From: Methanofervidicoccus sp. A16 | GTDB lineage: Archaea > AGJL01 > Methanococci > Methanococcales > Methanococcaceae | Direction: 5' to 3' | DNA length: 64,000 nt | Assembly (NCBI RefSeq): GCF_003351865.1 | Contig: NZ_CP022242.1 | Span: forward strand, 496,001-560,000 | In this document: piece after piece, positions 19,422 through 54,763 of the stretch | Numbering within the stretch: position 1 is the stretch's first letter | Layout: every line of letters starts with the position of its first letter | Made by a program: the position numbers and the translations under genes | The notes under the pieces: generated by a model | Told to the model about the DNA's origin: nothing | Seen by the model: only the letters and a program-made list of their open reading frames with translations | The model's database searches: none

Positions 19422-19850
19422 ACCTTAATTCCCATCAAAGTAACGATTTAAATAATAAAAATAATAAAAAAGACTAGAAAAAACCCTGGTTTTCATCAGT
19501 AGTGATTAAAAGAACAATGAAAATGATAATTGTTAAATAAAAACATGATTAAAATAATCAATATAAAACTATATAAAAATCATTAAATACCCTAAGATCT
19601 TTCTAATCACTTAGGTAAGATAGGAGATCTTACTCTGAATCCCTGTATTAGAGAGTATTCGGAGGGTTATTCTCCCCCAATCTTCTTTGTTAAAATTTCT
19701 GTATTTGAGATAAATAGAAGTTTTTATTTTAAACCTTTTTCTTTATTTTTTATTTTTATTAATTTTTATAATTATTTTTATTTTTTTTATTTTTATAATT
19801 ATTCTTTATTATTTTTTTAAAATTATCCTTTTGATGGGGAATTATAGGGT
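19422..19850 (+). mobile_element. composite MITE-like element (A end plus family B) with 9 bp target duplication
   Basis: The unit starts ACCTTAATTCCCATCAAAG and ends in the inverted GATGGGGAATTATAGGGT. It is flanked by exact copies of AAATATAGA (19413-19421 and 19851-19859). About 70 bp of family A left end is followed by a family B copy starting at 19493, with its CCTAAGATCTTTC and AGGAGATCTTAC core. No open reading frame is present. Confidence 0.8.
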
Positions 19851-22344: not shown

Positions 22345-22432
22345 TGGTGCAGGGGGGGGGATTTGAACCCCCGAACCCCTATGGGACTGGATCTTAAGTC
22401 CAGCGCCGTTGGCCAGGCTTGGCAACCCCTGC
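22345..22432 (-). tRNA. tRNA-Leu (anticodon UAA)
   Basis: 88 nt including an encoded CCA. The acceptor arm GCAGGGG pairs with CCCCTGC. The anticodon stem CTGGA/TCCAG encloses CTTAAGA, giving anticodon UAA. A long variable arm and a GGGGG/CCCCC T-stem identify a class II leucine tRNA. No intron is present. Confidence 0.97.
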
Positions 22433-22460: not shown

Positions 22461-22480
22461 ACATATATATAAAGTTTTCG
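22461..22480 (-). promoter_or_regulatory. promoter of tRNA-Leu
   Basis: Read on the minus strand, CGAAAACTTTATATATATGT is a BRE/TATA box about 35 bp before the mature 5' end. The family B element begins only 17 bp further upstream, with its target duplication in between. Confidence 0.75.
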
Positions 22481-22496
22481 GTTAATAAAATATTCT

Positions 22497-22818
22497 ACCT
22501 TAGTTCCCATCAGTAGTGATTAAAAGAATAATAAATCAATATAAAAATCATTAAATATCCTAAGATCTTTCCGGAACCCTTAGTTAAGATAGGAGATCTT
22601 ATGATCTTATTCTGAATCCCTGTATTAGAAGATCTTCAGAGGACCATTCTCCTTCAATATTATTTTAAAATTAGTTTGTATCTAGGATGATAGGAGTTTT
22701 CTGTTTTTTAAACATTTTTATTTTATTATTTATTTTTAAATTTTCTTTTTTATCATAATTATTTTTTTATAATTATCCTTATTATTCTTTAAATTATCAT
22801 TTTGATGGGAACTAGAGT
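22497..22818 (+). mobile_element. MITE-like element, family B, with 8 bp target duplication
   Basis: 322 bp from ACCTTAGTTCCCATCAG to TGATGGGAACTAGAGT. It is flanked by exact AATATTCT repeats (22489-22496 and 22819-22826). The core holds CCTAAGATCTTTCC, AGGAGATCTTATG and other short palindromic patches shared with the copies near 19600, 35250 and 45900. It is non-coding and intact at both ends. Confidence 0.85.
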
Positions 22819-22962
22819 AATATTCTACATTCAAGATGTTTCCTGAATATACTTTATTTTTAATATTTTTTATTCTATTGATAAATTAAATATAAAAACT
22901 AAAAAACAATATATTTTACATCCTTAAATTCCAAACCTCTAAAGACGGTGAAAGGTGATAAC

Positions 22963-28493: not shown

Positions 28494-29203
28494 GGGGTCC
28501 TGTCCACATAAAACAAACATCATATATAACAATGTACATAAGATACTATTATGCTAAGAGTAAAAGATATTATAAAGAAATTAAAAATCTTTAAGAGGAA
28601 CAAAATACCTATAGAAATTAAAACACTCGCCATTGCAACCTACATTCAGACATCTTCAGTAAGAAGGACTGCCAGAATTCTTTCAGAGATTTATCCAGTC
28701 TCAAAAACATCAGTTTGGAACTGGATAAATAAGTTTAAAGAAGAATTATCCATTACAACAGAGGAAAGAGAAAGAGATCTAATAGCGGTGGATGAAACTG
28801 TTGTTAAAGGTGGCGGGAAGCACTATTACGTTTATTCAGCTGTAGATGTTGAGAGGAATGAATTAATTTTAATGAGAGTCTATACAATAAGGAATCATCT
28901 AATTACGAGGTCCTTTGTAAAGAAAGTACTGAAGTACTGTAGGGGTGAGCCTAAATTCCTTATAGATAAAGCCCCATGGCTAATTAGTGCTCTAAAAAGT
29001 CTTAATTTAAACTTTGAACATCAGACTTTTGGGCGGGGGAGTTTGATAGAATCGGTGTTTTCTTCTCTGAAGCAGAGGGTAAAGATCTTTTTCTGCTCTA
29101 TTAATGCTAAAAATCCTGTTAGAAACTGGAACTTCTTTTGTAGGTTATTTGTTCTGTATTATAATAAACTGAGGTGGTGTTTATGTTAAGTGGACAGGTC
29201 CCA
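28494..29203 (+). mobile_element. short insertion sequence, IS6-like
   Basis: About 710 bp. The left end GGGGTCCTGTCCACATAAAA and the inverted right end TGGGACCTGTCCACTTAACA match at most positions. One intact transposase gene fills it. I could not find a convincing target duplication. Its ends do not resemble the ACCYTARTTCCC ends of the MITE-like elements. Confidence 0.8.
28551..29189 (+). CDS. DDE transposase, IS6/IS240-like
   Basis: 212 residues. An N-terminal helix-turn-helix (SSVRRTARILSEIYPVSKTS) precedes a compact DDE core. The likely catalytic residues are D81 (LIAVDETVV), D139 (FLIDKAPWL) and E167 (GSLIESVFSSL). Length and layout fit short archaeal IS6-type transposases. No frameshift is seen, so the element may be active. 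The family name rests on pattern memory, not a search. Confidence 0.8.
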   Translation: MLRVKDIIKKLKIFKRNKIPIEIKTLAIATYIQTSSVRRTARILSEIYPVSKTSVWNWINKFKEELSITTEERERDLIAVDETVVKGGGKHYYVYSAVDVERNELILMRVYTIRNHLITRSFVKKVLKYCRGEPKFLIDKAPWLISALKSLNLNFEHQTFGRGSLIESVFSSLKQRVKIFFCSINAKNPVRNWNFFCRLFVLYYNKLRWCLC

Positions 29204-31900: not shown

Positions 31901-32224
31901 ACCCTAGTTCCCACCAAAATGATAATTTAAAGAATAATAAAAATAATTATAAAAATTAATAAAAATAAAAATAATAAAGAAAAGATTTTAAAATAAAAAC
32001 TTCTATCATCTCAGATATAACATTTTAAAAAGAAGATTGAAGGAGAAAAATCTTCATAATAAAATTAATAACAGCAACTGGTTAGGGAGGATCTACTCCA
32101 CTTTCATAGAGTATCTTAGAGCACCCTAGGAGAGACTATTTATCTCTTATTCTTTTATTATATTTATTACTTTTATTATAATTATTATTATTTTTATCAG
32201 GATTTTTTTGATGGGAATTAAGGT
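31901..32224. mobile_element. composite MITE-like element (B half plus A half)
   Basis: 324 bp. It starts ACCCTAGTTCCCACC with about 140 bp of family B (minus orientation) and continues into the family A core (GGATCTACTCCACTTTC). It ends TTTTGATGGGAATTAAGGT. The flanks TTTTTTAAT and TTTTAAAAT match at 7 of 9 positions, perhaps a decayed target duplication. Confidence 0.7.
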
Positions 32225-35108: not shown

Positions 35109-35372
35109 ACCTTAATTCCCCTCAAAATGATAAATTTAAAGAATAATAAAAATAATTATAAAAATAATAATTATAATAAATAAAAATAAAAAATAAGAAA
35201 AAGTTTTAAAATAAAAACTTCTATAATCTTCTGGATATCTTTTAATACAGGGATTCAGAGTAAAATCTCCTATCTTACTTAAGTGTTCGGAAAGATCCTA
35301 AAGGTATTTAATAGTTTTTATTATTGATCATTTTCATTGTTCTTTTAATCACTGCTTGGTGGAAACTAAGGT
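35109..35372 (-). mobile_element. MITE-like element, family B (copy 3)
   Basis: 264 bp from ACCTTAATTCCCCTC to CTTGGTGGAAACTAAGGT, carrying the family B core on the minus strand (GGATTCAGAGTAAAATCTCC and GTTCGGAAAGATCCTAA). No exact target duplication is seen. It separates mer from ribK. Confidence 0.75.
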
Positions 35373-37664: not shown

Positions 37665-37922
37665 ACTCTAATTTCCATTAAAGTAACGATTTAAATAATA
37701 AAAATAATAAAAAAGACTGGAAAAAATATTGAAATATGATATTTTATAATAAAAATTAATAATAGCAACCTGCTAAGAAGGATCTGCTCTACTTCCATAG
37801 CATCTTATAGCATCCCAGGAGAGATTATCTATCTCTTATTTTTGATCTTAATACCTTCTTTTTATTGCTTTTATTATAATTATTGTTATTTTTATTAGAA
37901 TTTTTTTAATGGGAATTAGGGT
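37665..37922 (+). mobile_element. MITE-like element, family A (copy)
   Basis: 258 bp from ACTCTAATTTCCATTAAAG to AATGGGAATTAGGGT, with the core AATAGCAACCTGCTAAGAAG and GGATCTGCTCTACTTCC. No target duplication is visible. Confidence 0.72.
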
Positions 37923-45663: not shown

Positions 45664-45742
45664 ACTTTAGTCATGGACATAACTTTTTAAACTTATAATT
45701 AAAAATAATAATGTTAATAAAAATAAAAAATAATTATTATAA

Positions 45743-46112
45743 CCCTACTTCCCATCTCAAAAAGATAGTTTAAAGAATAATAAGGATAATTATAAAAATA
45801 ATAAAATAAGAAGAGGTTTTAAAATAAAAACTTCTATAATCTTAGATACAAAATTTTAAAAGAAGATTGGAGGGGATGGTCCTCTGTATATCTTACTAAA
45901 TAGTGATATCAGAATAAGATCTCCTATCTTACCTAAGGGTTCGGAAAGATCCTAAGGATATCTAATATTTTTATATTGATTATTTTCATTGTTCTTTTAA
46001 TCACTACTTGGTGGGAACTAAGGTTCTTATTTTGATTTTAATACCTTCTTTTTATTATTTTTATTATAATTATTGTTATTCTTATCAGAATTTTTTTGAT
46101 GGGAATTAGGGT
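45743..46112. mobile_element. composite MITE-like element (family B plus A half) with 8 bp target duplication
   Basis: A full family B copy (minus orientation, 45743-46024, ending CTTGGTGGGAACTAAGGT) is followed by the right half of family A ending GATGGGAATTAGGGT. The whole is flanked by exact TTATTATA at 45735-45742 and 46113-46120. Confidence 0.78.
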
Positions 46113-50494: not shown

Positions 50495-53400
50495 ATGAAT
50501 AGGAATATATTACTAATTTTGCTATTGGGTATCTTATCTCTAGCAGTATGCTATGGGGATGAGGTAAATATCGCATACGTCCATGAACACTTTGATTCTC
50601 TACTGAAATCTAAAGATGAAGTTAATGTCACAGGTATTGTCACGGCAAAATTTAGCGATAAGTTAATAGTAATCCAAGACGATACGGCAGGTATCTGGTT
50701 ATATAATAGTGGTGGTGTATTCTCAGATGTGGAGGTTGGAGATGAAATAAACGTTGTAGGGACATTGGATAAATATAAAGGATTAAGGGAGATAGTATCT
50801 ACCAAAGTAGTCATACTAAGCCACAATAACAAATTACCAGATCCAAAGGTTGTTCAAATTAAGGATATAAACAATGAAAGTTTAATGGGAACTTTAATAA
50901 AATTGTATAAAGTTGAGGCTACACATGTAGATGGTAAAAAATTCAAAGTTGCAGATGCAACTGGAGAAATCGGAGGATATATCAAATACAGTGATAACAA
51001 CCCATTAAATACTGGAGACTTCGTAGATCTTATATCCGTTGTAGGATGCTATGACAATATACAGGTAAATCCAAGAAGTGATGAGGATATTACAATATAT
51101 CCTAAAACAGAGGCAGTAATAGACATATCCTTAGGAAAGGTAACCTTCAAAAACAATAAAACATTGAGATTCAGTTACGGTATTGGAAGCGGTGCATTCT
51201 ATAAGGATGGAATAATCTACGCCATTACAGATAGGGGACCAAACATCGATGTTGATGATACAGAGAAGATATTAGGAGTGGATGCAGAGGAGGAGTATAA
51301 TTTAAGTGAAGATGGAAAGATATTCCCAATTCCAGACTACACTCCAACGATATTCTTAATAAATGCCTCAAACTATGAGATAATCGGAAATATTACCTTA
51401 AAAGATAAATATGGAAATAAAATTACAGGATTGACAAATCCAATTCCTTCGACAGAGTTGGCATACGACAGTAACTTTAATCTATTGGATCACGATCCAA
51501 ATGGAATTGATTCTGAAGCAATAGTAGTACTATCAAATGGAAGTTTCTGGATAGGTGAAGAATACAGTCCAAGTATACTATTAGTTGCTCCTGATGGAAG
51601 AATAATTAAAAGAATAGTTCCTGAAGGGCTAGAAAAGTACTATGTCAATGCAACCTATGATGTAGTTGGAGGATTGCCATCTATTATTGCTAAGAGACAC
51701 TTAAATAGAGGTATTGAGGCACTTGCTCTATCTCCTGATGAAAAGTATCTATACTTCGCACTTCAGAGCCCAATAGACAACCCTAATAATAAAAACTATA
51801 AAAAATCAAGGATCATTAGGCTGTTTAAATACGATTTAAATAATGAAAAGGTTGTAGGAGAGTATGTATATACTTTAGATACTCCTGAAACCTTCAAACT
51901 GGATAATACCGACAAACAAAAGAAGGTAAAATTAAGTGAAATGGTCTGTGTAGGCGACGATGAACTCATTGTATTGGAAAGAGTATCTGCAACTACAAAA
52001 TTGTACTATGTAAAATTAAATGGAACGAACATATACAATACAAAATGGGACGATGAAGATACCCAACCATGTTTAGATGAATTGAAGGTAGAAGAGTTAA
52101 AGGACTACAACATAACTCCTCTCCAGAAAATATTGGTATTTGACAATGGAGAATCTAAAATAATATTGCCTAAAAAAATAGAGGGAATTGCAAGGGATGG
52201 AAATACCTTATACCTATTAAATGACAATGACTTTGAAATAGAGGGGGATAAATCCACAATTTCAAAGATAAGGATTAAAATACCAAAAACCAATATCTCC
52301 CAAAACTACGGAAGTATTTTCTTTATACATCTCGCAGATATTCACATCTGTGATGACGATGAAGTTAATGAAGTATTTGGAGGTACAGTACCTCCTGTAA
52401 CTACAACAGAAGAGGCAGTTGAAGAGGTAATAAGATTCCAACCTGAGGTAGTTGTACAGACTGGAGATATAGTAGCACTGGCAGATAGGTACGATCTAGA
52501 TACTGATGAAAGATGGTATAAGTTGGTAAATGCTACAATATATACGCCTATAAATAAGACAGCAGGTATTCCATTCCTATTTGCACCTGGAAACCATGAT
52601 CCAGCAGGAATTACATTGGATAATGTAGATAAATCTGATCCTAGATACGGCGACGGATTACTTCTAAAGTATCTATTAAGTGATAAAGGTAAAACATACT
52701 ACTCCTATGACTATGGAAATTACCACTTTGTAGTCATAGATCCTGTGGAAACAGAAGAAAGTGGATACAGAGCGGTTAGATTACCTAGAGAGCAGTTAGA
52801 ATGGTTAAGAAGTGATTTAGAAAAGAACAGTGATAAGTTTATCATCATAAGTTATCACCAACCATTAGGTTCCTGGGAAGATGAATACTATAATGAGTTT
52901 TTGGATATAGTTTCCCAATACAACGGCCATATATTACTCATTGCTGGACATACTCATGACAATAGAATAATGACTATAAACGGAGTTCCTGAGCATCAGG
53001 GAGGGGCAGTTTGTGGAGATTGGTGGCAAACTGGTAAAACTCCTGATGGTAATCCAATAGGGTATACCATATACTATATAGAAAATGGTACTATCTACAG
53101 ATTCTACAAAGGTATTGGATATACACAGCAGATCAATTTACTCTCCCCAAGGGACGTTGTATTAAATGGTACAACTCCAATTGAATTGAATGTATATTAC
53201 GAAAACAAAACCATAGTTAATATAACCTATAAGATAGACAATGAAGGAACATTACATCCTCTAAACTTTACTCTGATCAACGTTACAAAAACATGGTGGT
53301 ACAACGCCAAGGGCGATGTAATCATAACTCCTGATATGTTAGACGACAGAAAACACAATATAACAATAATCGTCACAGCAAAGGATGGTAGTACCTTTAA

Positions 53401-54763
53401 CAGAACATTCCACTACAAATTCTCAAATAATACCATAATGAAGATCGCAGAGATAATTAATGATACTAACTTTAATGACTACTATGGATTATTTACAACA
53501 ATAAATGGAACTATATCAATGGTTACACGTAATGGGAACCTACTTCAAATTGTAGATGATTCAGGGGATATAATAATATGGGCAGGGGACTGTAAACATG
53601 ATAACTTCACAAAAGGGCAGAAAGTGATACTAAGGGGACAAATAACTCAGTTTAAAGGTACTAAGGAACTGAAGTTAATAAGTGGTTCCGATGTGATAGT
53701 ATATGGGTTCGAAAATATATCCGTAAGATTGATAGTTCTCCCAAATATTGAAACTGCCTACAAAAACTTCAGTGCCTTAAAAAATAAATACGTTGAAGTA
53801 AAGGGAGTTGTAACTGCAGTATTTGGAGATTTAGTGGCTATTCAAGATGATACCAGAGGTATTGAGTTATGGTTAGGAGAAATAAACCACGGTCCTATTA
53901 ACTTAGGAGATGTAGTAACTGTAAGGGGACAGTTGACAACATACAACAACATGATAGAGATCGTTGTAGGAAGGGAGGAAGATCTAATAATAAATGGAAG
54001 TGCACCAATACCTGATCCAAAGGAAATTACTATCAACGAGATCCCAGAGAACCTAGGAAACTTGGTTATAGTAAAGGGCCTAACTGTAGAATCAGTGGAC
54101 GATAGAAAGATAGTTGTAAGTGATGGAACAAATACAACAGTACTATACTGTAAGATGGCAGGTTTCAATCCTTCAAGTATTGTGAAGGTGGGAGATAAAA
54201 TAGGTGTAGTGGGAATAGCACATCTCTATAAACAATACTATGAAATACTTCCGAGAAGTAAAGAAGATATAATATTCTCAACAACTGGTAACGGTAGAAT
54301 CATCACCCTCAATAAAGGCTGGAACGCTATCTCAATACCTCACAGGGCAAACATATCCTTCAGTGATCCAGAGACTGTAACATCCATAATAACCTACTAC
54401 AACAACACCTGGCATAACAAAACCAACTTAGAACCACTCTACGGATACTACATCTACTGCCACAACGACACCTACATGTACATACAATACATCACCCCAG
54501 AGAAACCTACAGCACCACCTGTGAGAGATGTATACAAAGGCTGGAACCTCGTTGGAGTAAATCCAGGAAAGAATGATATCAATGGAGTAAGAGTGATAGA
54601 CTTCGTACTACCTGTAGAGGACTCATGGATAATGATACTTGATCTCGATGGAAACCTCTATACTAAAAATGACAACCTCTTCAATGTGCTACTTTACCCA
54701 TACGAAGTCTATTGGATGTACTGTAAAGAGGATGATATGTTAGCTGGAAGGAATCTATATTAA
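50495..54763 (+). CDS. 1,422-residue secreted protein: phytase-like esterase plus calcineurin-like phosphoesterase with OB folds
   Basis: A signal peptide (about 1-22) is followed by two OB-fold units (about 25-200). An esterase-like/phytase-like domain follows (about 205-600: AITDRGPNIDVDD, FWIGEEYSPSILLVAPDG, RGIEALALSPDEKYLYFALQ). A metallophosphoesterase comes next, with ADIH near 613, QTGDI near 654, PGNHDPAG near 699, SYHQP near 787 and AGHTHDNR near 817. Three further OB folds occupy about 975-1260, and two KGWN-type repeats lie at the C-terminus. The combination suggests extracellular release of phosphate from organophosphates or nucleic acids. The ATG follows GGTGAAGGT. Confidence 0.88.
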   Translation: MNRNILLILLLGILSLAVCYGDEVNIAYVHEHFDSLLKSKDEVNVTGIVTAKFSDKLIVIQDDTAGIWLYNSGGVFSDVEVGDEINVVGTLDKYKGLREIVSTKVVILSHNNKLPDPKVVQIKDINNESLMGTLIKLYKVEATHVDGKKFKVADATGEIGGYIKYSDNNPLNTGDFVDLISVVGCYDNIQVNPRSDEDITIYPKTEAVIDISLGKVTFKNNKTLRFSYGIGSGAFYKDGIIYAITDRGPNIDVDDTEKILGVDAEEEYNLSEDGKIFPIPDYTPTIFLINASNYEIIGNITLKDKYGNKITGLTNPIPSTELAYDSNFNLLDHDPNGIDSEAIVVLSNGSFWIGEEYSPSILLVAPDGRIIKRIVPEGLEKYYVNATYDVVGGLPSIIAKRHLNRGIEALALSPDEKYLYFALQSPIDNPNNKNYKKSRIIRLFKYDLNNEKVVGEYVYTLDTPETFKLDNTDKQKKVKLSEMVCVGDDELIVLERVSATTKLYYVKLNGTNIYNTKWDDEDTQPCLDELKVEELKDYNITPLQKILVFDNGESKIILPKKIEGIARDGNTLYLLNDNDFEIEGDKSTISKIRIKIPKTNISQNYGSIFFIHLADIHICDDDEVNEVFGGTVPPVTTTEEAVEEVIRFQPEVVVQTGDIVALADRYDLDTDERWYKLVNATIYTPINKTAGIPFLFAPGNHDPAGITLDNVDKSDPRYGDGLLLKYLLSDKGKTYYSYDYGNYHFVVIDPVETEESGYRAVRLPREQLEWLRSDLEKNSDKFIIISYHQPLGSWEDEYYNEFLDIVSQYNGHILLIAGHTHDNRIMTINGVPEHQGGAVCGDWWQTGKTPDGNPIGYTIYYIENGTIYRFYKGIGYTQQINLLSPRDVVLNGTTPIELNVYYENKTIVNITYKIDNEGTLHPLNFTLINVTKTWWYNAKGDVIITPDMLDDRKHNITIIVTAKDGSTFNRTFHYKFSNNTIMKIAEIINDTNFNDYYGLFTTINGTISMVTRNGNLLQIVDDSGDIIIWAGDCKHDNFTKGQKVILRGQITQFKGTKELKLISGSDVIVYGFENISVRLIVLPNIETAYKNFSALKNKYVEVKGVVTAVFGDLVAIQDDTRGIELWLGEINHGPINLGDVVTVRGQLTTYNNMIEIVVGREEDLIINGSAPIPDPKEITINEIPENLGNLVIVKGLTVESVDDRKIVVSDGTNTTVLYCKMAGFNPSSIVKVGDKIGVVGIAHLYKQYYEILPRSKEDIIFSTTGNGRIITLNKGWNAISIPHRANISFSDPETVTSIITYYNNTWHNKTNLEPLYGYYIYCHNDTYMYIQYITPEKPTAPPVRDVYKGWNLVGVNPGKNDINGVRVIDFVLPVEDSWIMILDLDGNLYTKNDNLFNVLLYPYEVYWMYCKEDDMLAGRNLY

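Follow-up and report, generated by a model that had tools for sequence, protein, structure and literature searches.

What is the 322-bp segment that adjoins the promoter of a tRNA-Leu gene in Methanofervidicoccus sp. A16, what brought it there, and does it serve its neighbour? The segment belongs to the stretch of 64,000 nucleotides analysed here (the window, G000:C1:496001-560000), which derives from a genome of 1,504,113 bp that is 99.94% complete (G000). The neighbourhood encodes, among others, prolyl-tRNA ligase, CofH and a protein of the S-layer family; this gene content and the related genomes point to Methanococcales. The original prediction, a 322-bp element carrying the terminal repeat of its family between exact flanking repeats, was borne out:

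22489..22496, no strand: left target-site duplication AATATTCT, exact, read from the sequence
22497..22818, plus strand: full-length family B MITE, 322 bp, with no coding sequence (longest open stretch 41 codons)
22497..22512, plus strand: left terminal inverted repeat ACCTTAGTTCCCATCA, matching IS982-family ends in G023 and G028 at 16/16 positions
22542..22708, plus strand: family B core, the less AT-rich centre of the element; 53 copies aligned
22803..22818, minus strand: right terminal inverted repeat ACTCTAGTTCCCATCA (minus-strand reading), read from the sequence
22819..22826, no strand: right target-site duplication AATATTCT, exact, read from the sequence

The element thus has the features of a MITE: it is short and non-coding, it is bounded by terminal inverted repeats (ACCTTAGTTCCCATCA and ACTCTAGTTCCCATCA), it lies within an exact duplication of its target (AATATTCT), its family has many dispersed copies, and an empty-site allele exists for another family B copy, in the genome G006. 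Its ends are of the type ACC[C/T]TARTTCCCATCA. The cores of families A and B had been described as unrelated; this holds for their middle parts, but the two families have in common their ends of about 16 bp and some of the AT-rich arm sequence.

The end motif TARTTCCCATCA is abundant in the 1.504-Mb genome, with 185 exact occurrences against 0 for the reversed control, and 434 against 12 when up to one mismatch is allowed, a density of about one motif per 3.5 kb. Halving some 420 ends suggests about 200 elements, which might make up 4% of the genome; the estimate is rough because composites carry three or more ends. A DNA search with the 322-bp element returned 114 matches in G000, many of them partial, and a profile search found 57 well-covered B cores in 43 stretches around copies together with the window (the sampled stretches). 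Outside this setting, no B core was found in viral contigs, plasmids or phages, and a search of genome contigs, from which G000 itself may be excluded, gave a single chance-like match of 20 bp in a Ruminococcaceae MAG. The motif count in the genome G004 was discounted, since most of it does not represent transposon ends: in L142 and L143 the 12-bp motif recurs every 117–120 bp within coding repeats (...SITPDGNYIVAG...) of a protein that is probably beta-propeller-like, so that counts alone would mistake it for transposon ends. Within the window, B cores had been predicted near 19600, 35270 and 45900, and all three were recovered. The relevant copies are:

19484..19785, plus strand: further B copy (core 19574-19729), identified by its core, with a poorly matching right end
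31901..32224, no strand: A/B hybrid, an A-type half joined to a B-type half
35110..35372, minus strand: further B copy, identified by its core
37665..37922, plus strand: family A copy with ends as in B, used as a comparison case
45742..46112, minus strand: B core (45821-45973) in an element whose outer ends are of types B and A, flanked by the exact 8-bp duplication TTATTATA, of low complexity

All nine elements of the window are intergenic, an outcome equalled by none of 20,000 random placements. The window contains one further repeat: positions 28747-29201 (455 bp, overlapping the open reading frame 28551-29189) are 99.8% identical to G000:C1:1060000-1060454. No MITE pair comes near this identity, and the stretch may have been duplicated recently or may be a mobile gene of another sort. 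Further along, 50495-54763 encodes a predicted secreted protein of 1422 amino acids, which contains a metallophosphoesterase region and weakly resembles nucleases of the ExeM/NucH type.

Evidence for mobility came from the flanks. We tested end pairs lying 150–800 bp apart for a duplication directly outside ACC...GGT. Exact duplications of 8–10 bp were found at 30 of the 152 end pairs in the sampled stretches, against 0.56 expected from random pairing, and at 9 of 28 full-length B copies (0.47 expected). Low-complexity duplications are frequent, and several are not of this kind (TTCTATACA, ATTCTTAG, CAATATCT and AATATTCT). Mobility is further supported by the B copy at G000:C1:348724-349015, whose insertion site is cleanly empty in G006: TATTTATTT occurs there once, and identity across the junction is 89%. 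For the window copy, the order of tRNA-Leu and proS and the promoter block are common to four relatives (G001, G004, G005 and G010), none of which carries the element; no sister genome holding the segment as ancestral DNA was found among these syntenic relatives. Homology of G001 and G004 to the window locus ends at 22488, the base preceding the duplication. To the right of the element, the spacer could not be aligned with relatives and is too diverged to give a base-exact empty site for this copy. The window insertion is younger than the split from G001, or it was lost in the relatives.

The ends shared by the two families had suggested that one transposase moves both. When ends were typed as A, B or C by the bases following the inverted repeat, exact duplications were found around same-type elements (B-left with B-right, A-left with A-right) and also around elements of mixed type: A-right with B-right (L113), A-left with B-right (L130, L094), B-right with A-left (L122) and the element at 45742-46112 of the window. 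The third type, C, occurs in duplicated targets with A-right (L110, L112, L116) and with B-right (L117). As exact duplications surround elements that combine an A-type with a B-type end, families A and B are evidently moved by one machinery, as had been proposed.

Which machinery this may be is indicated by the ends themselves. The B left-end consensus matches IS982-family ends of G023 and G028 at 16/16 positions; on the right, the consensus ACCCTAGTTCCCATCA shows 16/16 identity to an IS982 end of G006. Both start with AC. Matching ends bound elements of about 0.9–1.05 kb in G006, G014, G023 and G028, the proteins of which match the IS982 model. G023 and G028 appear to be Methanocaldococcus-like and G014 Methanotorris-like, and G006 would belong to the same genus as G000; IS982 has been reported in Methanotorris formicicus and Methanocaldococcus bathoardescens (PMC7335449). 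These IS copies are flanked by repeats of 7–8 bp (TTAAATT in G006, TTAAAAA and GATAATTA in G023), compared with 8–10 bp here, in a family whose direct repeats vary in length, with values including 0 to 10, and whose AC ends are conserved (PMC7335449). In the 99.9%-complete G000, no intact IS982 transposase was found with the IS982 model or with protein searches, so the identity of the mover is drawn from relatives. The sole IS982 copy found there is decayed (G000:C1:217981-218344, with the end ACCCTAGTTCTCATTA) and, this fragment being the only IS982 gene found, the MITE family looks orphaned in G000. In G007, of the same genus, 74 matches include dozens of decayed IS982 transposase fragments, against this single relic.

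We also asked whether the B core might be what is left of an IS982 gene, and rejected the idea: no match was obtained, though the same queries recovered the relic as a positive control. The cores contain no transposase-derived sequence (best tblastn E value 1.7), and past the 16-bp ends the sub-terminal regions show weak similarity to IS982. These comparisons therefore lend no support to an origin of the element through internal deletion of a known IS982.

Taken together, 22497-22818 is very probably an IS982-type MITE that was mobilised in trans by IS982 and whose family is now probably immobile. An IS982 transposase supplied in trans would have placed a non-coding core, bounded by 16-bp ends such as Methanococcales IS982-family elements carry, upstream of tRNA-Leu and duplicated 8 bp of the target. 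The same transposase would also have moved family A, end type C and the mixed A/B composites, because, as we propose, mobilisation depends on the outer ends alone. Later, decay would have reduced the resident IS982 gene to a fragment, leaving the family probably immobile unless a transposase enters from outside.

The alternative that survives best, still an improbable one, is that a transposase from outside the IS982 family, with convergent ends, moved the elements. No intact IS982 was found in G000, the search covered only part of the transposase families, and the duplications here (8–10 bp) are somewhat longer than the 7–8 bp read at IS982 copies; against this stand the near-complete or complete identity of the ends to IS982 in four relatives, the relic in G000 itself, and the variable direct repeats and conserved AC ends of the IS982 family (PMC7335449).

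The position of the IS982-type MITE raises the question of a function at its neighbour, for which two features matter:

22345..22432, minus strand: tRNA-Leu (TAA), found by ARAGORN and Rfam
~22464..22484, minus strand: BRE/TATA-like promoter block of tRNA-Leu (AACCGAAAACTTTATATATA), resembling the block of tRNA-Thr and conserved in G001 and G004

The element had been placed 17 bp from the BRE/TATA box; it does adjoin the block, which resembles that of tRNA-Thr in G000, but it begins 12–16 bp from it. An effect on the tRNA promoter, or a benefit from it, had also been suggested and found no support here, since the block is intact in the window and conserved in relatives that lack the element. 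Insertion linked to tRNA genes was rejected as well, such a gene being present in only 2 of the 43 other copy-bearing stretches.

That the core is kept as an RNA or regulatory module for neighbours such as tRNA-Leu is more improbable still. It is more conserved and less AT-rich than the arms, and the window copy adjoins a promoter; however, the folding energy of the B core is no better than that of shuffled sequences (z 0.58 and 0.20), and an alignment of the B copies revealed no conserved RNA structure on either strand. Among 53 copies, none of seven consensus pairs showed compensatory change, no pair having changed on both sides, and nothing was found on the minus strand. B copies are sited between convergent genes too, not just at promoters. 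The wholly intergenic placement of the window elements fits tolerance rather than a role. For a copy beside a promoter in this genome, plain insertion into AT-rich intergenic DNA, or tolerance there, is the explanation to weigh first.

Median pairwise identity among full-length B copies is 81%, and perfect duplications are still present in many. Copies are mosaic in a PHI-like test (0.367 for neighbouring informative sites versus 0.482 after permutation, 0/2000 permutations), adjacent sites being more compatible than in permutations. B is nested inside A at several loci, and a 752-bp nested composite block is common to two loci at 94% identity; we infer that copies have recombined or undergone gene conversion with one another. 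Family B is also present in G001 (73–86% identity), so the family is older than the split from that genome. In the comparison of L184 and L186 with L096, G000 is 87–94% identical to G006 and G007, whereas other loci are nearer G001 and G004, and gene transfer between lineages at the L096 locus is possible. Spread by recombination and duplication instead of transposition, which the mosaic copies and the shared block of about 750 bp might suggest, is the least credible reading and already contradicted for copies with target duplications, since exact duplications some 50 times above expectation, together with an empty site that holds the target only once, require insertion.

A broader scheme, which we offer tentatively and consider possible rather than likely, is that these are orphan, end-compatible MITEs with several unrelated cores that recombined into mixed-end composites, survive in a genome whose transposase has been lost and are re-mobilised only by a transferred IS982, selection on the cores being for intact ends and not for parentage.

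MITEs of other archaea such as Sulfolobus are likewise short and non-coding and depend on an IS transposase acting in trans, with parent families that differ from IS982. We found no published description of the present Methanococcales elements in the open-access papers searched. IS982-type MITEs as such are already known; distinctive here are the several unrelated cores, the interchangeable ends and the missing resident transposase. With these elements the range of IS982-type MITEs, known from a bacterial endosymbiont, now includes a methanogenic archaeon, in which they are very dense; the clean target duplications at mixed A/B elements show that the ends of unrelated families are interchangeable; and the reduction of the parent gene to a fragment provides a natural case of the fate of MITEs after transposase loss. 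The AC-ended terminal repeats of about 16 bp and the variable direct repeats are those of the IS982 family (PMC7335449), but the window element has 322 bp and no transposase sequence. The closest parallel is MITECca01 of Cardinium cOegib, an IS982-derived MITE of about 240 bp without a gene, present in 169 copies that make up 3.5% of the chromosome and lie mostly in intergenic regions or within other mobile elements (PMC9769881). Both have IS982-type ends, no gene and a high copy number. Cardinium, however, keeps intact parental IS982 copies, whereas no intact parent was found in G000, and in place of one dominant core the archaeal host carries two or more unrelated cores whose ends are interchangeable.
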